Part shown: positions 54,575 to 60,695 of the stretch, in pieces
How positions within the stretch are numbered: position 1 is the stretch's first letter
Layout of the letters: every line of letters begins with the position of its first letter
Program-made: the position numbers and the translations under genes
Notes under the pieces: model-generated
What the model was told of the DNA's origin: nothing
Seen by the model: only the letters and a program-made list of their open reading frames with translations
Databases searched by the model: none
Assembly: GCF_040358255.1 (NCBI RefSeq)
Contig: NZ_CP132938.1
Coordinates: forward strand, 4,340,001-4,404,000
Origin: Tunturibacter gelidoferens
GTDB taxonomy: Bacteria > Acidobacteriota > Terriglobia > Terriglobales > Acidobacteriaceae
Direction: 5' to 3'
DNA: 64,000 nt

Positions 54575-55950
54575 CTATCCGATTTTGAATCCGTACTTCG
54601 AGGCCTGGGTCTGCAGATCTTTCCACCTCGCCGTTTTACTCGAACCTGACGGGCCAGCTCCGCTGCTGACTTGCACCGCGCCGAACACGCTACCCACATT
54701 CTGAAGGCAAGGGGTCGGGATCGCGGGCGTGTTCGGTTTGGGCAGGCCAGGGACTGCCGTCTGCGGCTCATTGAAGTTCAGAGCGTAGGCCAGGTTGTTG
54801 ATGTCGCCACTCGCATCTCGTGGTGTCAGCGGCGCAAGGCCCCAGCGCCATTCAATCAGCTTGAGCACGGATGTGTGGTCGAAGACGAGCGAACTGATCC
54901 GTGGATTTTGGGCATCGCCGCGGCTGAACGGAGACGCGATCACAACCGGCAGGCGAAATCCGAGCAGCGTCTTACCACCTATGATGTCGATATCGACTGC
55001 GTTTGCTGCCTCCGCTCGCGGCGGGGGGACGTGATCGAAGAATCCGCCCCACTCGTCGAAATTGACGACGAGCACGGTGCTTGACCAGGCGGGTCCGTTG
55101 GCTACGGCCTCGAACACGTCATAAAGAAAGCGATCGCCTTCGCGAATATCAGCGTGGGGATGGTCGTCATTGCCGGTCCCATCGTCCAGGACTGTGTAGG
55201 TCGGGTCTATGAAGGAGACCGCTGGCAAGGTACCATCGCTCGCCTGCGCAAGAAAATCACTGTAGAGCTTCGAAATGCCAAGGTACTGGTCGGCCCAGAG
55301 TGTGACGAAGGGCAAGTTGGAGTAATAGTAATTGTGGCTCACCTTCGCGTCCGCGAGCCGGTCCAAGATCGTCGGCAGCGAACTGATGGCGACGCTATCG
55401 TCAGTGCGATCCGTCTGGCCCGCGTACAGGAAAATCCTGTTTGGAAAGGTCGGGCCGAGTATTGCAGCGAAGTAATGGTCGCAGGTCGTGTAGTTGCGAG
55501 CCAGGGCCGCATAGAAGGGAATGTCCTTCTCCTCGTAATAGCCAATGCTGAAGAGGTCATTCGATCCGGCACGGAGAAAGCCGTCCATCATGCCGCGGTC
55601 GTAGGCGACGCGCGACCCGTCGTAGGAGTGATCGGATCGGACTGTGGGCAGCCTGTGAAGTCGCCGGAGAGAGAGTGGATCAGACGCGATGCGCCGCTCT
55701 TGTCGGTGAAGTTCAACCCTGCTTGTATGCCCGCCGCGTTAGGCAGCCAGCCCAGAAAGTGGTCAAAGCTGCGGTTCTCCATCGTGACAACGACAAGATG
55801 TTCGAGGCCGGAAGATGCCGGGGGAGGCAGGGTTGGATAGGTCGGCGAAGCGATCGGTGCAATCGATTGAACACGGGTTGAGCAACCCAGCACAGCCGAT
55901 CCGCCAGCCAGAAACGCGTGCTTCGTGAAATCTCTGCGATTCCATTGCAT
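54575..55950 (-). pseudogene. Tat-exported phosphoesterase (phospholipase C/acid phosphatase family), frameshifted
   Basis: The N-terminal part (from the ATG complementary to 55948-55950) has a twin-arginine signal, NRRDFTKHAFLAGGSAVLGC, with a lipobox-like Leu-Gly-Cys, and the family motif ENRSFDHFLGWLP. The rest lies in another frame from about 55635: DHSYDGSRVAYDRGMMDGFLRAG, PTFPNRIFLYAGQT, VVNFDEWGGFFDHVPPP and RLPVVIASPFSRG, all typical of the phosphoesterase family PF04185. One base missing after a CC near 55634-55636 explains the break. Functional relatives release phosphate from lipids or nucleotides in the periplasm. Confidence 0.88.
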
Positions 55951-56258: not shown

Positions 56259-56444
56259 TCATTCGACATGAATTTGCTTCGCAGCCAGCCGTAGTCGCAA
56301 CTCTTCATTCTCGATAAGCAAGTCACAAATAATGCACTGAAGAGACTCAATGCGTCGTTGCAGATCGGCTTCCTTCAGAAGTGTCTGCTCAGTCAGTTTG
56401 GGGTCTCCGGGTACGGTCGATGGGTCTGACCGATTGTTTTGCAT
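56259..56444 (-). CDS. small coiled-coil protein
   Basis: The 61-residue product starts at the ATG complementary to 56442-56444, 5 bases after AGGAG. The C-terminal two thirds, LTEQTLLKEADLQRRIESLQCIICDLLIENEELRLRLAAKQ, follow a leucine/isoleucine heptad pattern and should form a coiled coil. Two adjacent cysteines lie in its middle. No family is recognised. It lies downstream of the exported-protein gene at 56479 on the same strand, 34 bases away, and may be co-expressed with it. Confidence 0.5.
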   Translation of the reverse strand: MQNNRSDPSTVPGDPKLTEQTLLKEADLQRRIESLQCIICDLLIENEELRLRLAAKQIHVE

Positions 56445-56478: not shown

Positions 56479-57360
56479 CTAGTTGTCTCCTGTCCACCAG
56501 ACCGGAGGCGTCGGTATATGGGGCAGATGTATCTTTTTCAGGAATTGGCCTAGTTCCGGGGAAAACTCCTGCAGAACATTCTGAGCAGCGATGCCACCGA
56601 AGGCGATGGCGGATCTCTGCCCCGCATGGGTCAGGTTGTCGAAGCCGGCCGGAAGGTAGGCATTGCCAACAAAACCGCCGGCTGCGGCGCCGGTGAAGTT
56701 TGAGATCGCAACGGTGGGATGACCTCCGTCGGTCCTATCGATGAAGGTGAAGATAAAGGCATGGCCCAGGCGTGCAGGAAAGAAGGTGCTTTCAGAGCGT
56801 CGATAACGAGGGTCTTCGTGCAGCAGAACGGCAGCGGAGAAACGCCCAATGCTTTCAGCTCCAGTCCGGGCAAAACTGTCTCCATAGTTGCGTCCAAATG
56901 CCTCGGCACCAGCGTGCCATTCATGAGGGTAGTTCTTGGGGGGATTTGCCATGCGTATGCCGGTACTGAAAGCGTTCGTGAAGAAGCTGCGAGGGCCAAA
57001 CGCGGGCTCCACCAAATATTTGAACTTGTCTCCAACGTCCATCGATTGATAGATAGGCCGGCTAGACAGTGTCGACAGCAATGGAATGGTTGGCGGGGAG
57101 CTTTGTTGAGGAGTTGGCGAAGGTGACGGAGCATCGGGCAGGTCCGGTTCCGCGGGTGCAGAGGAGGAAACGTATGCGGAAGCAGTCTGAGCGTGCGCAT
57201 GCAAAACCGATCCTGTTGAAAGAACGATAAACAGCGGGCCCAACAGCATCACACCGAAAAAGATAAACAACGTCTTTTGCAAAAGGAGAAGCGATATGGA
57301 TACTGCGCCGCGGGATCGTTTCCAATAAAGTTTCGTCAAACTAACACCGGTCTGTGCCAT
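56479..57360 (-). CDS. exported acidobacterial protein of unknown function
   Basis: The start at 57360 (MAQTGVSLTKLYWKRS) follows GAGGG and gives 293 residues; a longer frame from 57429 would cross the GTCAAG boxes. An N-terminal hydrophobic stretch (SISLLLLQKTLFIFFGVMLLGPLFIVLS) is a signal or anchor, followed by a Pro/Ser-rich linker with the PDLPDAPSPSP motif common in acidobacterial exported proteins. The body carries GDKFKYLVEPAFGPRSFFTNAFSTGIRM, GFGRNYGD-like AFGRNYGDSFARTGAESIGRFSAAVLLHEDPRYRRSE and NFTGAAAGGFVGNAYLPAG. It may be an outer-membrane-associated protein. It is divergent from the CpxR-like gene. Confidence 0.7.
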   Translation of the reverse strand: MAQTGVSLTKLYWKRSRGAVSISLLLLQKTLFIFFGVMLLGPLFIVLSTGSVLHAHAQTASAYVSSSAPAEPDLPDAPSPSPTPQQSSPPTIPLLSTLSSRPIYQSMDVGDKFKYLVEPAFGPRSFFTNAFSTGIRMANPPKNYPHEWHAGAEAFGRNYGDSFARTGAESIGRFSAAVLLHEDPRYRRSESTFFPARLGHAFIFTFIDRTDGGHPTVAISNFTGAAAGGFVGNAYLPAGFDNLTHAGQRSAIAFGGIAAQNVLQEFSPELGQFLKKIHLPHIPTPPVWWTGDN

Positions 57361-57413
57361 CCTGCCCTCGATATGAAGTTGGATTTCGTTCTGTTGTTTT
57401 GACTGGCGAGGCA

Positions 57414-57461
57414 GTAAAATTTGCGTCAAGTTCGGTCAAGCGATCGTCAAGGCCTGTCAAG
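57414..57461. promoter_or_regulatory. five helically phased CpxR-like half-sites
   Basis: GTAAAA at 57414 and GTCAAG at 57425, 57435, 57446 and 57456 are spaced 11, 10, 11 and 10 bases, one DNA turn each. E. coli CpxR recognises GTAAA-N5-GTAAA, so this looks like a row of OmpR-family half-sites. It lies between the exported-protein gene and the CpxR-like gene, with a TTGACA box at 57479-57484. Confidence 0.7.
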
Positions 57462-57575
57462 ACGAGATGCGGACTGACTTGACATTTCTCGACACCGCCC
57501 GTGATCGAGAGACCTACAATGAATGATTGGCGGAGAAGTATCTGGAGCGGAGTACTGTTGGGCACGAGCGTTGTA

Positions 57576-58313
57576 ATGGATCGCAAATTGGAGTCAGTCG
57601 CGGGACATATCTTGGTTGTCGACGACGACGCGGAGCTATGCAGGCTGGTGTCGCGCTTTCTGGGAGCGGAAGGATACTCGGTACAGACAGTCCAAACCAG
57701 TGGACTGGGTGTCGATCGTGCGCTGTCAGGAAGTTACGATCTGGTTGTCCTGGATGTGATGCTGCCGGAGATGGACGGCTTCGAAGTGCTCCGGCGAATC
57801 CGAACGAAATCCAATATGCCTGTCCTGATGCTCACGGCACGGGGCGATGACCTCGATCGAATCTTAGGTTTGGAGATGGGAGCTGACGATTACCTGCCAA
57901 AACCGTTCAATACTCGCGAGCTCTCCGCGCGCGTTCGCGCCATTTTGCGCAGGGCAAGCTCGACGAATACCAATGCCGCTCTCTCCGAGACCGCTTCCAT
58001 TCGGGTTGGCGATTTGGAGTTGAATGCCGGGGCCAGGACCGTACGCTGTGGAGACGAAGCGCTGAATCTAACGACGGTTGAATTTGATTTGCTTCAGAGG
58101 TTGTTGCGATCGGCAGGATCAGTTGTGGGGCGCGAAGAGCTGACAAAAGATGTGCTCGGGCGAGAGTTCTCGCCGTTTGACCGGAGCATCGACACCCACG
58201 TCTGGAGCCTTCGCAGGAAGGTGGGAAACGCTTTGGATGGCACCGAAAGAATCAAGGGCATCCGTGGCGTCGGATATCTCTATGCCTTACCTGATCGGTC
58301 CGGAGGCGAGTAA
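57576..58313 (+). CDS. OmpR-family response regulator (CpxR-like)
   Basis: The start at 57576 gives 245 residues with a receiver domain beginning directly at HILVVDDDAEL: Asp16-18 cluster, phosphoacceptor Asp60 (LVVLDVMLPEMDGFE) and Lys109 (YLPKPF). The C-terminal winged helix (NLTTVEFDLLQRLLRSAGSVVGREELTKDVLGREFSPFDRSIDTHVWSLRRKVG) is CpxR-like. An in-frame ATG at 57519 is possible but overlaps a TACAAT box. The gene is 5 bases from the sensor kinase gene and likely autoregulated through the upstream half-sites. Confidence 0.92.
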   Translation: MDRKLESVAGHILVVDDDAELCRLVSRFLGAEGYSVQTVQTSGLGVDRALSGSYDLVVLDVMLPEMDGFEVLRRIRTKSNMPVLMLTARGDDLDRILGLEMGADDYLPKPFNTRELSARVRAILRRASSTNTNAALSETASIRVGDLELNAGARTVRCGDEALNLTTVEFDLLQRLLRSAGSVVGREELTKDVLGREFSPFDRSIDTHVWSLRRKVGNALDGTERIKGIRGVGYLYALPDRSGGE

Positions 58314-58318
58314 GCAAA

Positions 58319-59689
58319 ATGCGAAATCTGTTTCTGAAGATATTTCTCTGGTTTTGGATGACATTTCTGATTGTTGCGGTGACGCTGGCCGCGGTAACGG
58401 TGATCACTCGCTCGAATGAGACGATGATCGCCAGGCTATCGCTTTATCTGCCTCTTGAAGCGAGGCATGCCGCGGACATTTATGAACGTGAAGGCAAAGC
58501 CAGTCTGAGGCATCAATTCGATCAAATTATAGAGAGCGGGTCCATCGCGCCTTACCTGTTAGACGAAAACTGGAAGGATGTGCTGGGCCGCAATCCGCCT
58601 GCGGGTGCGGTCGAGTTCGCAAAGACCGCGAGGGAGGATGTACCTGTCATCAGCAAACTCTCACGATGGAACGGATTTGCGGCGCAACAAGCGATTGGAG
58701 CAAGTGGGCACAGATACACTACGCTGGTTGTGGCGCACGGGCCATCGGTTGCTGATCTAATCAAAGGACTTAGCTTCAGCACGTTGTTCGGCCTGTTTGC
58801 GATTCTGTTGATTGGAGGAGTTTTTTGCTTTTGGCTCGCCCGTCATATCGCCGGTCCAGTCGTGCAACTGAGCGAAGCCGCGGGCCGAATTGCAGACGGC
58901 TGGCTTGATACGCGGAGCGAGCAAAGTATTCGACTACGGCGTGATGAGATTGGGCGCCTGGGTGTGAGCTTCGATCGAATGGCGGAGCGAATCGAATCCC
59001 TGGTTTACGGGCAGCAACGGCTCTTCGGAGATGTTTCTCATGAATTGCGTTCTCCTCTTGCCCGTCTGAGTGTGGCAGAGGGATTGCTGCGGCAATGTCC
59101 CCCTGACGAGCGGCCGGAATATCTGGACCGGATCGCTCTCGAAGTGGAACATCTCGATCAATTGATCGGCCAGCTCCTGACGTTGGCTCGAATCGACAGT
59201 GGTGCCGACTCGAGCCGCACAGAAAGGGTTGAGTTGAGTAGTCTGATTCAGGAAGTTGCCGTCGATGGAAACTTCGAGGCCCAGGCCAAATACTGTTCCG
59301 TCAAGGTCGATTCCATGGAGGCGTGCGCGACGACGGGCGCAAGGGAACAACTGCGTCGAGCGATCGAGAACGTTGTACGCAACGCCATCCGGTATACGCA
59401 GCCCAGTACCGACGTGGAAATCACCTTACGCAAACAATATGCTCCCGCGCTTTTCAGGGCCGTCATTCAAATACGCGATCATGGTCCGGGCGTGACCAGG
59501 GAACACCTTGAAAAGATATTTCTCCCTTTCTATCGGATCCCAACGATCCATAGTGAACCTGCAGTCGGCGCGGGACTGGGCCTCGCGATCACCGAGCGCA
59601 TTGTGCAGACATATGGCGGAAGTGTCAGCGCAACGAATGCCCCAGATGGTGGTCTCATCGTGAACCTGGAACTGTTACTCACTGACTGA
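58319..59689 (+). CDS. membrane sensor histidine kinase (CpxA-like)
   Basis: The 456-residue protein has membrane helices at about 6-29 and 152-175, separated by a periplasmic sensor loop of ~120 residues, then HAMP (about 176-230). The H-box is FGDVSHELRSPLARL with phosphoacceptor His241. The ATPase part shows ENVVRNAIRYT (N-box), RDHGPGV (G1) and GAGLGLAIT (G2). The layout and the linked regulator match CpxA. In enterics Cpx senses envelope stress; the same role here is inference. Confidence 0.92.
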   Translation: MRNLFLKIFLWFWMTFLIVAVTLAAVTVITRSNETMIARLSLYLPLEARHAADIYEREGKASLRHQFDQIIESGSIAPYLLDENWKDVLGRNPPAGAVEFAKTAREDVPVISKLSRWNGFAAQQAIGASGHRYTTLVVAHGPSVADLIKGLSFSTLFGLFAILLIGGVFCFWLARHIAGPVVQLSEAAGRIADGWLDTRSEQSIRLRRDEIGRLGVSFDRMAERIESLVYGQQRLFGDVSHELRSPLARLSVAEGLLRQCPPDERPEYLDRIALEVEHLDQLIGQLLTLARIDSGADSSRTERVELSSLIQEVAVDGNFEAQAKYCSVKVDSMEACATTGAREQLRRAIENVVRNAIRYTQPSTDVEITLRKQYAPALFRAVIQIRDHGPGVTREHLEKIFLPFYRIPTIHSEPAVGAGLGLAITERIVQTYGGSVSATNAPDGGLIVNLELLLTD

Positions 59690-59735
59690 ACAGGCATCGC
59701 ATAGCTAGACCGCGCTTGGCGAACCATACATCCTG

Positions 59736-59792
59736 ATGGTCGGCAACCCTTACCTTGGGATTAATTCCGGGTTGCCCGTGACTCGGGAAGAA
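59736..59792. repeat. dispersed repeat, family C, hairpin form
   Basis: GGTCGGCAACCC (59738-59749) pairs with GGGTTGCCCG (59768-59777) across TTACCTTGGGATTAATTCC. ACTCGGG follows. It is just after the CpxA-like gene. Confidence 0.65.
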
Positions 59793-59976
59793 CTCGTCGA
59801 CTGACTGGAGGCTGACTTCCCAGACGCCGATTTCTGGGTGTCAGCGAGATTTCGCTTGATTGCATAAACAGAGTCGGCTTCTTCCTGCCGAGCCGTGGTA
59901 GTCGATAAGCCACAATCTGCCCTGGCCGGGGGAGCCAGCATTCTGATGCAGTCATCTGAAAACTTGACTTGTCCCG

Positions 59977-60375
59977 TCACTTGGGGGCGAGGCCTTCGAC
60001 GATAAACATGCGGCCCTTTGACGAGCTTAGCCGGATCGGCTTGATCGCCTCATAGGCTGGCGAACCATACCAGCCACGCGCTTTCTCCACGCTGTCGAAA
60101 GCGATCACTACGATGCCCTTTGGCGGTTCGCCATCGAGGGCCTGTGTCTTGGCACCTCCACTAACGAGAAAGTGATAGTGGCCATTGAAAGGCGCCAGCG
60201 TCGCCGGGACCTTCTCCCCATATTTCTGTAAGTCAGTGAGGTCCATTGCATCGACTTCCGAGATGACGTAGACAGGCGGCGGCATAACTTGCCGCGCATG
60301 CATCGCCTTGGCGCCAGCAACGCCGATCGAGACGCCGGCCGACACTGCGAGCGCCAGTTTGTGGTTCGTCTTCAT
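59977..60375 (-). CDS. exported DUF1330 protein
   Basis: The ATG complementary to 60373-60375 gives 132 residues with a signal peptide (NHKLALAVSAGVSIGVAGAKAMHA). The rest is the DUF1330 core: YVISEVDAMDLTDLQKYGEKVPATLAPFNGHYHFLVSGGAKTQALDGEPPKGIVVIAFDSVEKARGWYGSPAYEAIKPIR. DUF1330 is a small dimeric alpha-beta-barrel domain of unknown function. The signal peptide is common in acidobacterial members. Confidence 0.9.
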   Translation of the reverse strand: MKTNHKLALAVSAGVSIGVAGAKAMHARQVMPPPVYVISEVDAMDLTDLQKYGEKVPATLAPFNGHYHFLVSGGAKTQALDGEPPKGIVVIAFDSVEKARGWYGSPAYEAIKPIRLSSSKGRMFIVEGLAPK

Positions 60376-60456
60376 GGGTCCACTCTCCTCGGTGTGCTTT
60401 TGCGAACAAGCACTAACCAGTACAACCTGAATGAGGTTCCACATACTAAGTCTGCG

Positions 60457-60549
60457 TTAAGATATTGCAGACTCGTCTGTACCTGTTGCCGGTAGTATGG
60501 TCAAGACTGCTAATCCCAAGGCTGTCCCGAATGCCAGCTTGGTTTTCAT
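60457..60549 (-). pseudogene. signal-peptide remnant beside the DUF1330 gene
   Basis: The 30-codon frame MKTKLAFGTALGLAVLTILP followed by ATGTDESAIS and a stop begins like the neighbouring DUF1330 protein (MKTNHKLALAVSAG). It lies 81 bases upstream of that gene on the same strand. It may be a truncated tandem copy that kept only the signal peptide, or a short leader. Confidence 0.4.
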
Positions 60550-60664
60550 ATTAGATCCGACGACAAGTTGGAATCTCGGATTGGATGCCGCTTGCTCTCC
60601 TAGGCCGGCTTCTGGGAACTTGCTAAGGCTTATCACGCGGGGGGCAGAGAAGTCGAACGATTCT

Positions 60665-60695
60665 GGTCGAGTTGTCGGCAAACCGCACCTTACGC
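60665..60695. repeat. family C repeat, half copy
   Basis: GTTGTCGGCAAACCGCACCT TACGC closely follows the family C core. It overlaps the end of the upstream gap. Confidence 0.55.

Follow-up and report, generated by a model that had tools for sequence, protein, structure and literature searches.

A long CpxR-type array of half-sites with an adjoining inverted pair as the probable autoregulatory region of a CpxRA-like gene pair

Background

In Escherichia coli the cpxP gene lies divergent to cpxRA. The consensus of the CpxR binding site is given in the available text of PMC12802237 as GTAAA-N5-GTAAA, and also as GTAAA-N(4-8)-GTAAA, and GTCAA-containing motifs are described there as being enriched in vitro (HT-SELEX) with the CpxR of Pseudomonas aeruginosa. 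In a table of the same source muxA, yceJ and PA3965 appear with two CpxR pairs each, at positions differing by 11, which we take to mean three consecutive half-sites. According to the accessible parts of two further reports, the orientation of its site makes no difference to the action of CpxR (PMC5063474, which is also a source of the consensus), and E. coli cpxP has three CpxR-P sites (PMC9753035).

Multi-repeat sites have been published for ArcA, 92 of 158 sites having three to five direct repeats with a predominantly 11-bp spacing, and at dctA a weaker two-repeat ArcA site on the opposite strand follows a 24-bp repeat-free region (available text of PMC3798270). The OmpR boxes at ompF and ompC and the tandem PhoB boxes, as cited in the same text, likewise comprise several repeat elements per promoter. 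In the accessible part of a report on KdpE (PMC3264566), two half-sites are occupied non-cooperatively by the DNA-binding domain on its own, and caution is therefore needed when cooperativity is deduced from the layout of sites alone.

Results and discussion

Position, phase and chance expectation of the array

The DNA analysed here is a 64-kb stretch of the Tunturibacter gelidoferens genome (the window). The original prediction had placed a row of one GTAAAA and four GTCAAG motifs upstream of a CpxR-like gene in this stretch, and all five were found at the predicted positions (Table 1). The motif starts follow each other in steps of 11, 10, 11 and 10 bp (mean 10.5), i.e., as direct repeats of GTAAA/GTCAA that recur at roughly every helical turn, which is the layout of the CpxR-type box.

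Table 1. Coordinates of the features of the locus within the window
Feature	Position	Strand	Remarks
Divergent protein, 293 aa, no Pfam family	56479..57360	-	hydrophobic N-terminus (by eye)
Distal half-site GTAAAA	57414..57419	+	read in sequence; T seen in window only; 3/6 columns invariant (four-way alignment)
Half-site 2 GTCAAG	57425..57430	+	5/6 columns invariant (window + 3 orthologs)
Half-site 3 GTCAAG	57435..57440	+	5/6 columns invariant (window + 3 orthologs)
Half-site 4 GTCAAG	57446..57451	+	5/6 columns invariant (window + 3 orthologs)
Half-site 5 GTCAAG	57456..57461	+	6/6 columns invariant (window + 3 orthologs)
Inverted pair GTCGAG-N4-GTCAAG, 10-bp spacing	57478..57493	-	9/12 half-site columns invariant
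TACAAT, candidate -10 of regulator promoter	57515..57520	+	6/6 columns invariant; distance to inverted pair constant within 1 bp
OmpR/PhoB-family response regulator, CpxR-like	57558..58313	+	Response_reg + Trans_reg_C; start inferred from orthologs
CpxA-like sensor histidine kinase	58319..59689	+	HAMP, HisKA, HATPase_c

With respect to chance, the spacing of the array is far above expectation. In a half-site chain scan of the window, the score of which favours half-sites at a spacing of 10 or 11 bp, the array reached 44.2 and all chains scoring more than 17 ended at it, while the best chain in 100 windows resampled from a first-order Markov model scored 21.3 (mean 15.2, sd 1.6). Over the entire 5.58-Mb genome, the array is the sole place matching GTMAA-N5/6-GTMAA-N5/6-GTMAA (three overlapping matches as against none for the reversed-pattern control) and the sole place matching GTCAAG-N4/5-GTCAAG (three matches as against one in the control). 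Slippage can generate short tandem repeats, and the array might accordingly be looked upon as a functionless product of slippage or of chance; however, given the distance between its score and those of the resampled windows, and given that across genomes of three genera the spacers have diverged and the half-sites have been kept (see below), next to no credence can be given to such an origin.

Conservation in orthologous loci

Close orthologs of the regulator were found in the genomes G126 (87%), G256 (85%) and G012 (78%) by searching sets of 61 and 299 genomes. The kinase is present in all three as well, and so is the divergent gene, which is 77% (L111 in G126), 59% (L112 in G256) and 68% (L005 in G012) identical by tblastn. 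In a four-way alignment of the window with these three loci, half-sites 2 to 5 are in register and 21 of their 24 columns are invariant, as opposed to 5 of 13 in the three spacers among them; the corresponding counts are 2 of 16 for the stretch between the array and the inverted pair, 3 of 16 for the stretch past that pair, 5 of 33 for the leader (57525-57557) and 20 of 53 for the region left of GTAAAA. None of the three orthologs keeps GTAAAA, its T being absent from all of them. Because of this difference in column conservation, four of the half-sites appear to be under selection whereas the status of the fifth is uncertain, and the distal GTAAAA is probably weak or dispensable.

The inverted pair and the candidate promoter

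The predicted row of five motifs is present but is not the whole element, as an inverted pair of half-sites on the minus strand, which starts 16 bp past the array, and a candidate -10 hexamer further downstream had been missed. Scored alone, the inverted pair of the window was reached by 1.3% of 300 shuffles of its region. Minus-strand pairs with a 10-bp spacing also precede the regulator in the loci L027, L028, L029, L030, L033 and L115. When scored alone, such pairs were reached by less than 3% of 300 shuffles in the window, L111, L005, L027, L028, L029, L033 and L115, the values being 48% in L112 and 32% in L030.

The distance from the end of the array to the hexamer TACAAT is 53, 53, 45 and 53 bp in the four aligned sequences, the shorter one belonging to G256, in contrast to 36, 37, 36 and 36 bp when measured from the TTGAC of the inverted pair. 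It is therefore the inverted pair that holds the promoter distance more strictly. TACAAT is likely to be the -10 element of the regulator promoter. This assignment is not certain, since an ATG at 57519 lies partly within the hexamer and is, in some of the orthologs, the start of a short ORF (by eye); a short leader ORF would be another reason for the conservation of the hexamer. In L028 and L029, TATACT or TATAGT was seen by eye about 23 bp downstream of the minus-strand pair. The word TTGACA (57479-57484), which is identical in the window and the three orthologs, was considered as a sigma-70 -35 element of the regulator and rejected, as no -10-like hexamer was seen by eye 16-18 bp downstream of it; it is read here as a minus-strand half-site.

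The inverted pair sits at the -35 region and is oriented away from the regulator gene, and repression from it is therefore possible. It might, in this case, be mainly a negative-feedback operator that blocks the regulator promoter once the protein is abundant, the direct array serving to activate the divergent gene. However, the candidate -35 element, 17 bp upstream of TACAAT, reads ACACCG and is thus poor, and poor -35 elements are more usual at activated promoters. Together with the stated indifference of CpxR to the orientation of its sites, this makes a mainly repressive role unlikely.

The regulator and its kinase

The protein encoded downstream of the array has the receiver and the winged-helix Trans_reg_C domain of the OmpR/PhoB family, PF00072 and PF00486 both being above cut-off. 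The expectation that it would be CpxR-like was borne out in that CpxR (NF008199) was the best of 96 NCBIfam models, albeit with 222.6 bits and thus below the cut-off of 341. For the kinase, the two best models were those of CpxA, NF007007 and NF045900, with 229.7 and 269.7 bits, respectively, and cut-offs of 486 and 800. As both best models are those of CpxR and CpxA and both proteins stay below the cut-offs, the pair is referred to as CpxRA-like and not as CpxRA. The closest named relative of the regulator is encoded on a Candidatus Acidiferrales contig (61%).

Translation of the regulator probably starts at TTG 57558, at the place of which a start codon is found in three of the four sequences including the window, L112 having an ATG 9 bases further on; ATG 57576 is a possible alternative. 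The mechanically assigned GTG 57501 was discarded as a common start on account of in-frame stops in two orthologs.

In an alignment of 22 regulators, the recognition-helix region of the window and the three orthologs reads DRSIDTHVW(S/N)LR(R/K)KV, the W of THVW being replaced by S in all 18 others. Position 3 of the half-sites is a C in the same four loci and mostly an A in relatives, and the apparent co-variation of the helix W/S change with the C/A change in the half-site may serve as a lead.

Recurrence of the array before CpxR-like genes

For a survey that did not depend on the motif, 107 CpxR-like loci, the window included, were picked by similarity of the regulator alone, provided that at least 200 nt of upstream sequence were available, and up to 300 bp were scanned; kin sequences were counted separately, so that the counts do not represent independent events. 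Coding-strand GTHAA words show spacing peaks at 10 bp (29), 11 bp (23), 20 bp (10), 21 bp (15) and 30-33 bp (22), all other spacings from 6 to 40 bp occurring 0-3 times each. The longest run at 10/11 bp comprises five half-sites in one locus (the window), four in three, three in 10, two in 18, and none or one in 75. Runs of at least two were thus seen in 32 and runs of at least three in 14 of the 107 loci; at the control spacings 6/7, 8/9, 12/13 and 15/16 bp, runs of two occurred in 1, 1, 0 and 0 loci, respectively, and on the opposite strand runs of two at 10/11 bp were found in 10. As the window has the longest of these runs, its array marks the upper end, in length, of a CpxR-type box that recurs among these loci.

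Runs of three extend to the gammaproteobacterial loci L044 (Porticoccus), L046 (Alteromonas), L052 (Amphritea), L055 (Microbulbifer) and L083 (Teredinibacter). With a chain score that is less strict, two half-sites are counted in the enteric-type loci L050, L051, L053 and L056 and three, the first of them weak, in L054. The scanned upstream stretch of 34 of the 107 related genes does not contain any GTHAA, and some relatives therefore use other sites. In a protein-free pattern search, GTNAAG triples were found in 65 of 299 family genomes, with 118 matches, some simple repeats among them, as against 25 for the reversed-pattern control. Thirty loci, one of them the window, were fetched from this search; in 20 the pattern is followed by a same-strand CpxR-like gene, and the fetched stretch of the other 10 contains none.

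Further tandem words were seen before other CpxR-like genes. GTAACG/GTTACG words in 10-bp steps occur in L018 and L026 (reached by 0.3% and 15% of shuffles, respectively) and perhaps represent a further specificity class. L135, L138, L140 and L141 have arrays of four half-sites, mostly alternating between GTTAAG and GTGAAG (11, 10, 10), and the divergent protein of L138 and L140 resembles an efflux adaptor by eye.

According to the original prediction, five half-sites in phase suggest a protein filament. In such a model, a seed site would start the polymerisation of the regulator over the array, and an all-or-none switch would result. Five in-phase half-sites with the inverted pair close by, the longest run among 107 loci, and the cooperative binding of ArcA-P reported for multi-repeat sites (available text of PMC3798270) would be in line with this model. 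However, the four conserved direct half-sites can be filled by two tandem dimers, runs of three and four recur before CpxR-like genes, and more than four half-sites were found at no other locus of the 107. In addition, the same text on ArcA states that the outermost repeats set the length of the footprint, and since three to five repeats per ArcA site have been published there, a row of five half-sites does not need a filament. With conserved half-sites that fit two dimers and with runs of three to five both in relatives and at ArcA sites, the filament was given up as the leading model and is considered quite improbable.

The divergent protein

The divergent gene codes for a protein that is probably exported or membrane-anchored, as suggested by its N-terminus. 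It has no match in Pfam or the PDB, and its three orthologs have none in Pfam, so that the LTXXQ family of CpxP and Spy, as expected at a cpxP-cpxRA-type locus, is represented by 0 matches in all four proteins; a structure model from the single sequence had a mean pLDDT of 44.7 and was unusable. In order to survey the corresponding slot elsewhere, the longest divergent ORF was taken at every locus selected by protein that has a run of at least two (32 loci), a mechanical choice that may miss the true divergent gene at some loci. An ORF of at least 90 aa was present in 29 of the 32, and in 25 when the window and the three orthologs are left aside. LTXXQ was above cut-off in 12 of these 25 (L010, L028, L032, L044, L046, L052, L055, L078, L083, L113, L114 and L115), and in three (L021, L023 and L034) LTXXQ or Metal_resist was matched solely below cut-off; one ORF (L048) codes for an animal-type haem peroxidase, and nine have no match. 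Among the loci with runs of at least three, the share of LTXXQ is 9 of 12. Given 12 matches in 25 and none in the window and its orthologs, the protein of the window occupies a slot that is often, though not always, that of CpxP/Spy.

Among 150 genomes, 21 homologs of the exported protein were found, the window included. The array is present in all three that have a close regulator adjoining, again with the window counted. A 44% homolog (L170 in G169) has a degenerate chain just upstream with 10, 11 and 10 bp spacing and a raw score of 19.9; a CpxR-like gene lies near this chain (L170:2440-2476 / L187). No chain above 14.7 was found within the stretch fetched for the other 17 homologs. One of the homologs (L169 in G176, 57%) has neither a regulator match within the fetched stretch nor an array. 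As homologs without a close regulator are thus mostly without an array, the array follows the regulator.

The same observation bears on an explanation in which the regulator has no part. Read on the minus strand, GTCAA is TTGAC, and the half-sites could be stacked -35 elements of the divergent gene. However, no conserved -10 element was seen by eye at 16-18 bp on the divergent side, the array is missing where the divergent gene has no adjacent regulator (L169, G176), and in many relatives the half-sites are GTAAAG, which does not read TTGAC; stacked -35 elements are therefore a highly improbable explanation.

Regulon search and extent of the locus

A search for shorter arrays had been proposed in order to define the regulon, and with GTCAAG, GTMAAG and GTCRAG-GTCAAG pairs no convincing second target was obtained in the genome of the window. 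All three GTCAAG pairs and all four GTCRAG-GTCAAG pairs, one of the latter being the inverted pair, lie at the array locus; GTMAAG pairs number four, one of them elsewhere, with two control matches. The GTCRAG-GTCAAG matches compare with the control as 4 versus 1 in G000, 1 versus 3 in G012, 6 versus 3 in G126 and 2 versus 6 in G256. All of them are at the locus in G000, G012 and G256, and in G126 three of six are outside, which equals the control count.

Comparison of the DNA between 54400 and 62000 of the window revealed that the exported gene, the array, the regulator and the kinase form a block common to G012, G126 and G256, the main match beginning at 56480 in two of them and at 56294 in the third and ending at 59673-59680. 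In G309, which is labelled as the same species, there was no match to the regulator at an E-value of 1e-82 or better, and within 56480-59680 the sole match was one of 52 bp inside the regulator gene. Its absence from this genome suggests that the block is an accessory cassette.

Two further features flank the locus. Right after the kinase, a 951-bp stretch (59735-60685) holds a DUF1330 gene, and a copy at 100% identity was reported at a second place in the genome of the window (G000:C2:5122085-5123035); the 155-aa DUF1330 protein is identical at both copies, although a letter-for-letter script search of the fetched locus did not recover the 951-bp stretch. At 54575-55950, a pair of overlapping ORFs on the minus strand has the look of a single gene of the phosphoesterase type that is read in two frames.

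Proposed mechanism

What the computation shows, namely the sites with their phase and conservation, their association with the regulator gene and the restriction of close matches to this locus, is best explained, with high probability in our view, if the array region serves as the control region through which a CpxRA-like system regulates itself, two tandem dimers sitting on the array, another dimer on the inverted pair, and the divergent gene being under joint control. The kinase would phosphorylate the regulator, presumably the protein that binds here, and phosphorylated dimers would bind head-to-tail, two of them on the conserved half-sites 2 to 5 (57425-57461). The third dimer would sit on the inverted pair, where the -35 region has its upstream edge, and might help or gate the polymerase at the promoter with TACAAT as its -10. 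Occupancy would raise transcription of the regulator-kinase operon, and one nucleoprotein complex would also control the divergent exported protein, which stands where many related loci have CpxP/Spy. We infer in this the identity of the binding protein, the need for phosphate, the positive sign, the number of dimers and the control of both genes. Strong autoregulation, and possibly a joint control that extends to the divergent exported gene, had been put forward in the original prediction, and both are reasonable readings of the sequence.

Against autoregulation of this kind stand the 8-bp shorter gap between array and promoter in G256, which is not a whole helical turn, the relatives that lack GTHAA, the pattern-fetched loci that lack a CpxR-like gene, and the missed CpxR and CpxA cut-offs.

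Beyond this, the locus could represent a dedicated branch of CpxRA in which CpxP was swapped for an unrelated exported protein, the specificity shifted from GTAAAG to GTCAAG, and a region of seven half-sites came to act as a steep single-locus switch, the three genes travelling as a mobile cassette. We regard this extended scenario as tentative and rather less likely to be true than false.

Comparison with known systems

A limited literature search, by which absence from print is not proved, retrieved no paper joining CpxR with GTAAA direct-repeat half-sites and none on the binding motif of the CpxR response regulator in Acidobacteria. If the proposed autoregulation holds, a CpxR-type autoregulatory box that usually has two half-sites is extended here to a graded series of two to five across several bacterial groups. 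The series would offer natural variants for relating the number of half-sites to the steepness of a two-component switch, and the divergent protein may be regarded as a candidate replacement of CpxP.

Compared to ArcA, the sequence motif of which differs from that of the window, the multi-repeat array is alike, and the opposite-strand site described at dctA much resembles the inverted pair; however, ArcA is a global regulator, and close sites of the window's type were found at the regulator's own locus only. Several repeat elements at one promoter are also a feature of the OmpR boxes at ompF and ompC and of the tandem PhoB boxes.

The closest match is the CpxR box of E. coli and P. aeruginosa, with which the locus shares a direct GTMAA repeat per helical turn upstream of cpxR and an exported protein encoded divergently. 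It differs from this box in that four direct half-sites are conserved, that an inverted pair is added to them and that position 3 is a C, and from the E. coli cpxP-cpxRA locus in that the divergent protein does not match LTXXQ and that no second close site was found in the genome. Taken together, the arrangement is a well-supported, longer variant of the known CpxR-type design.
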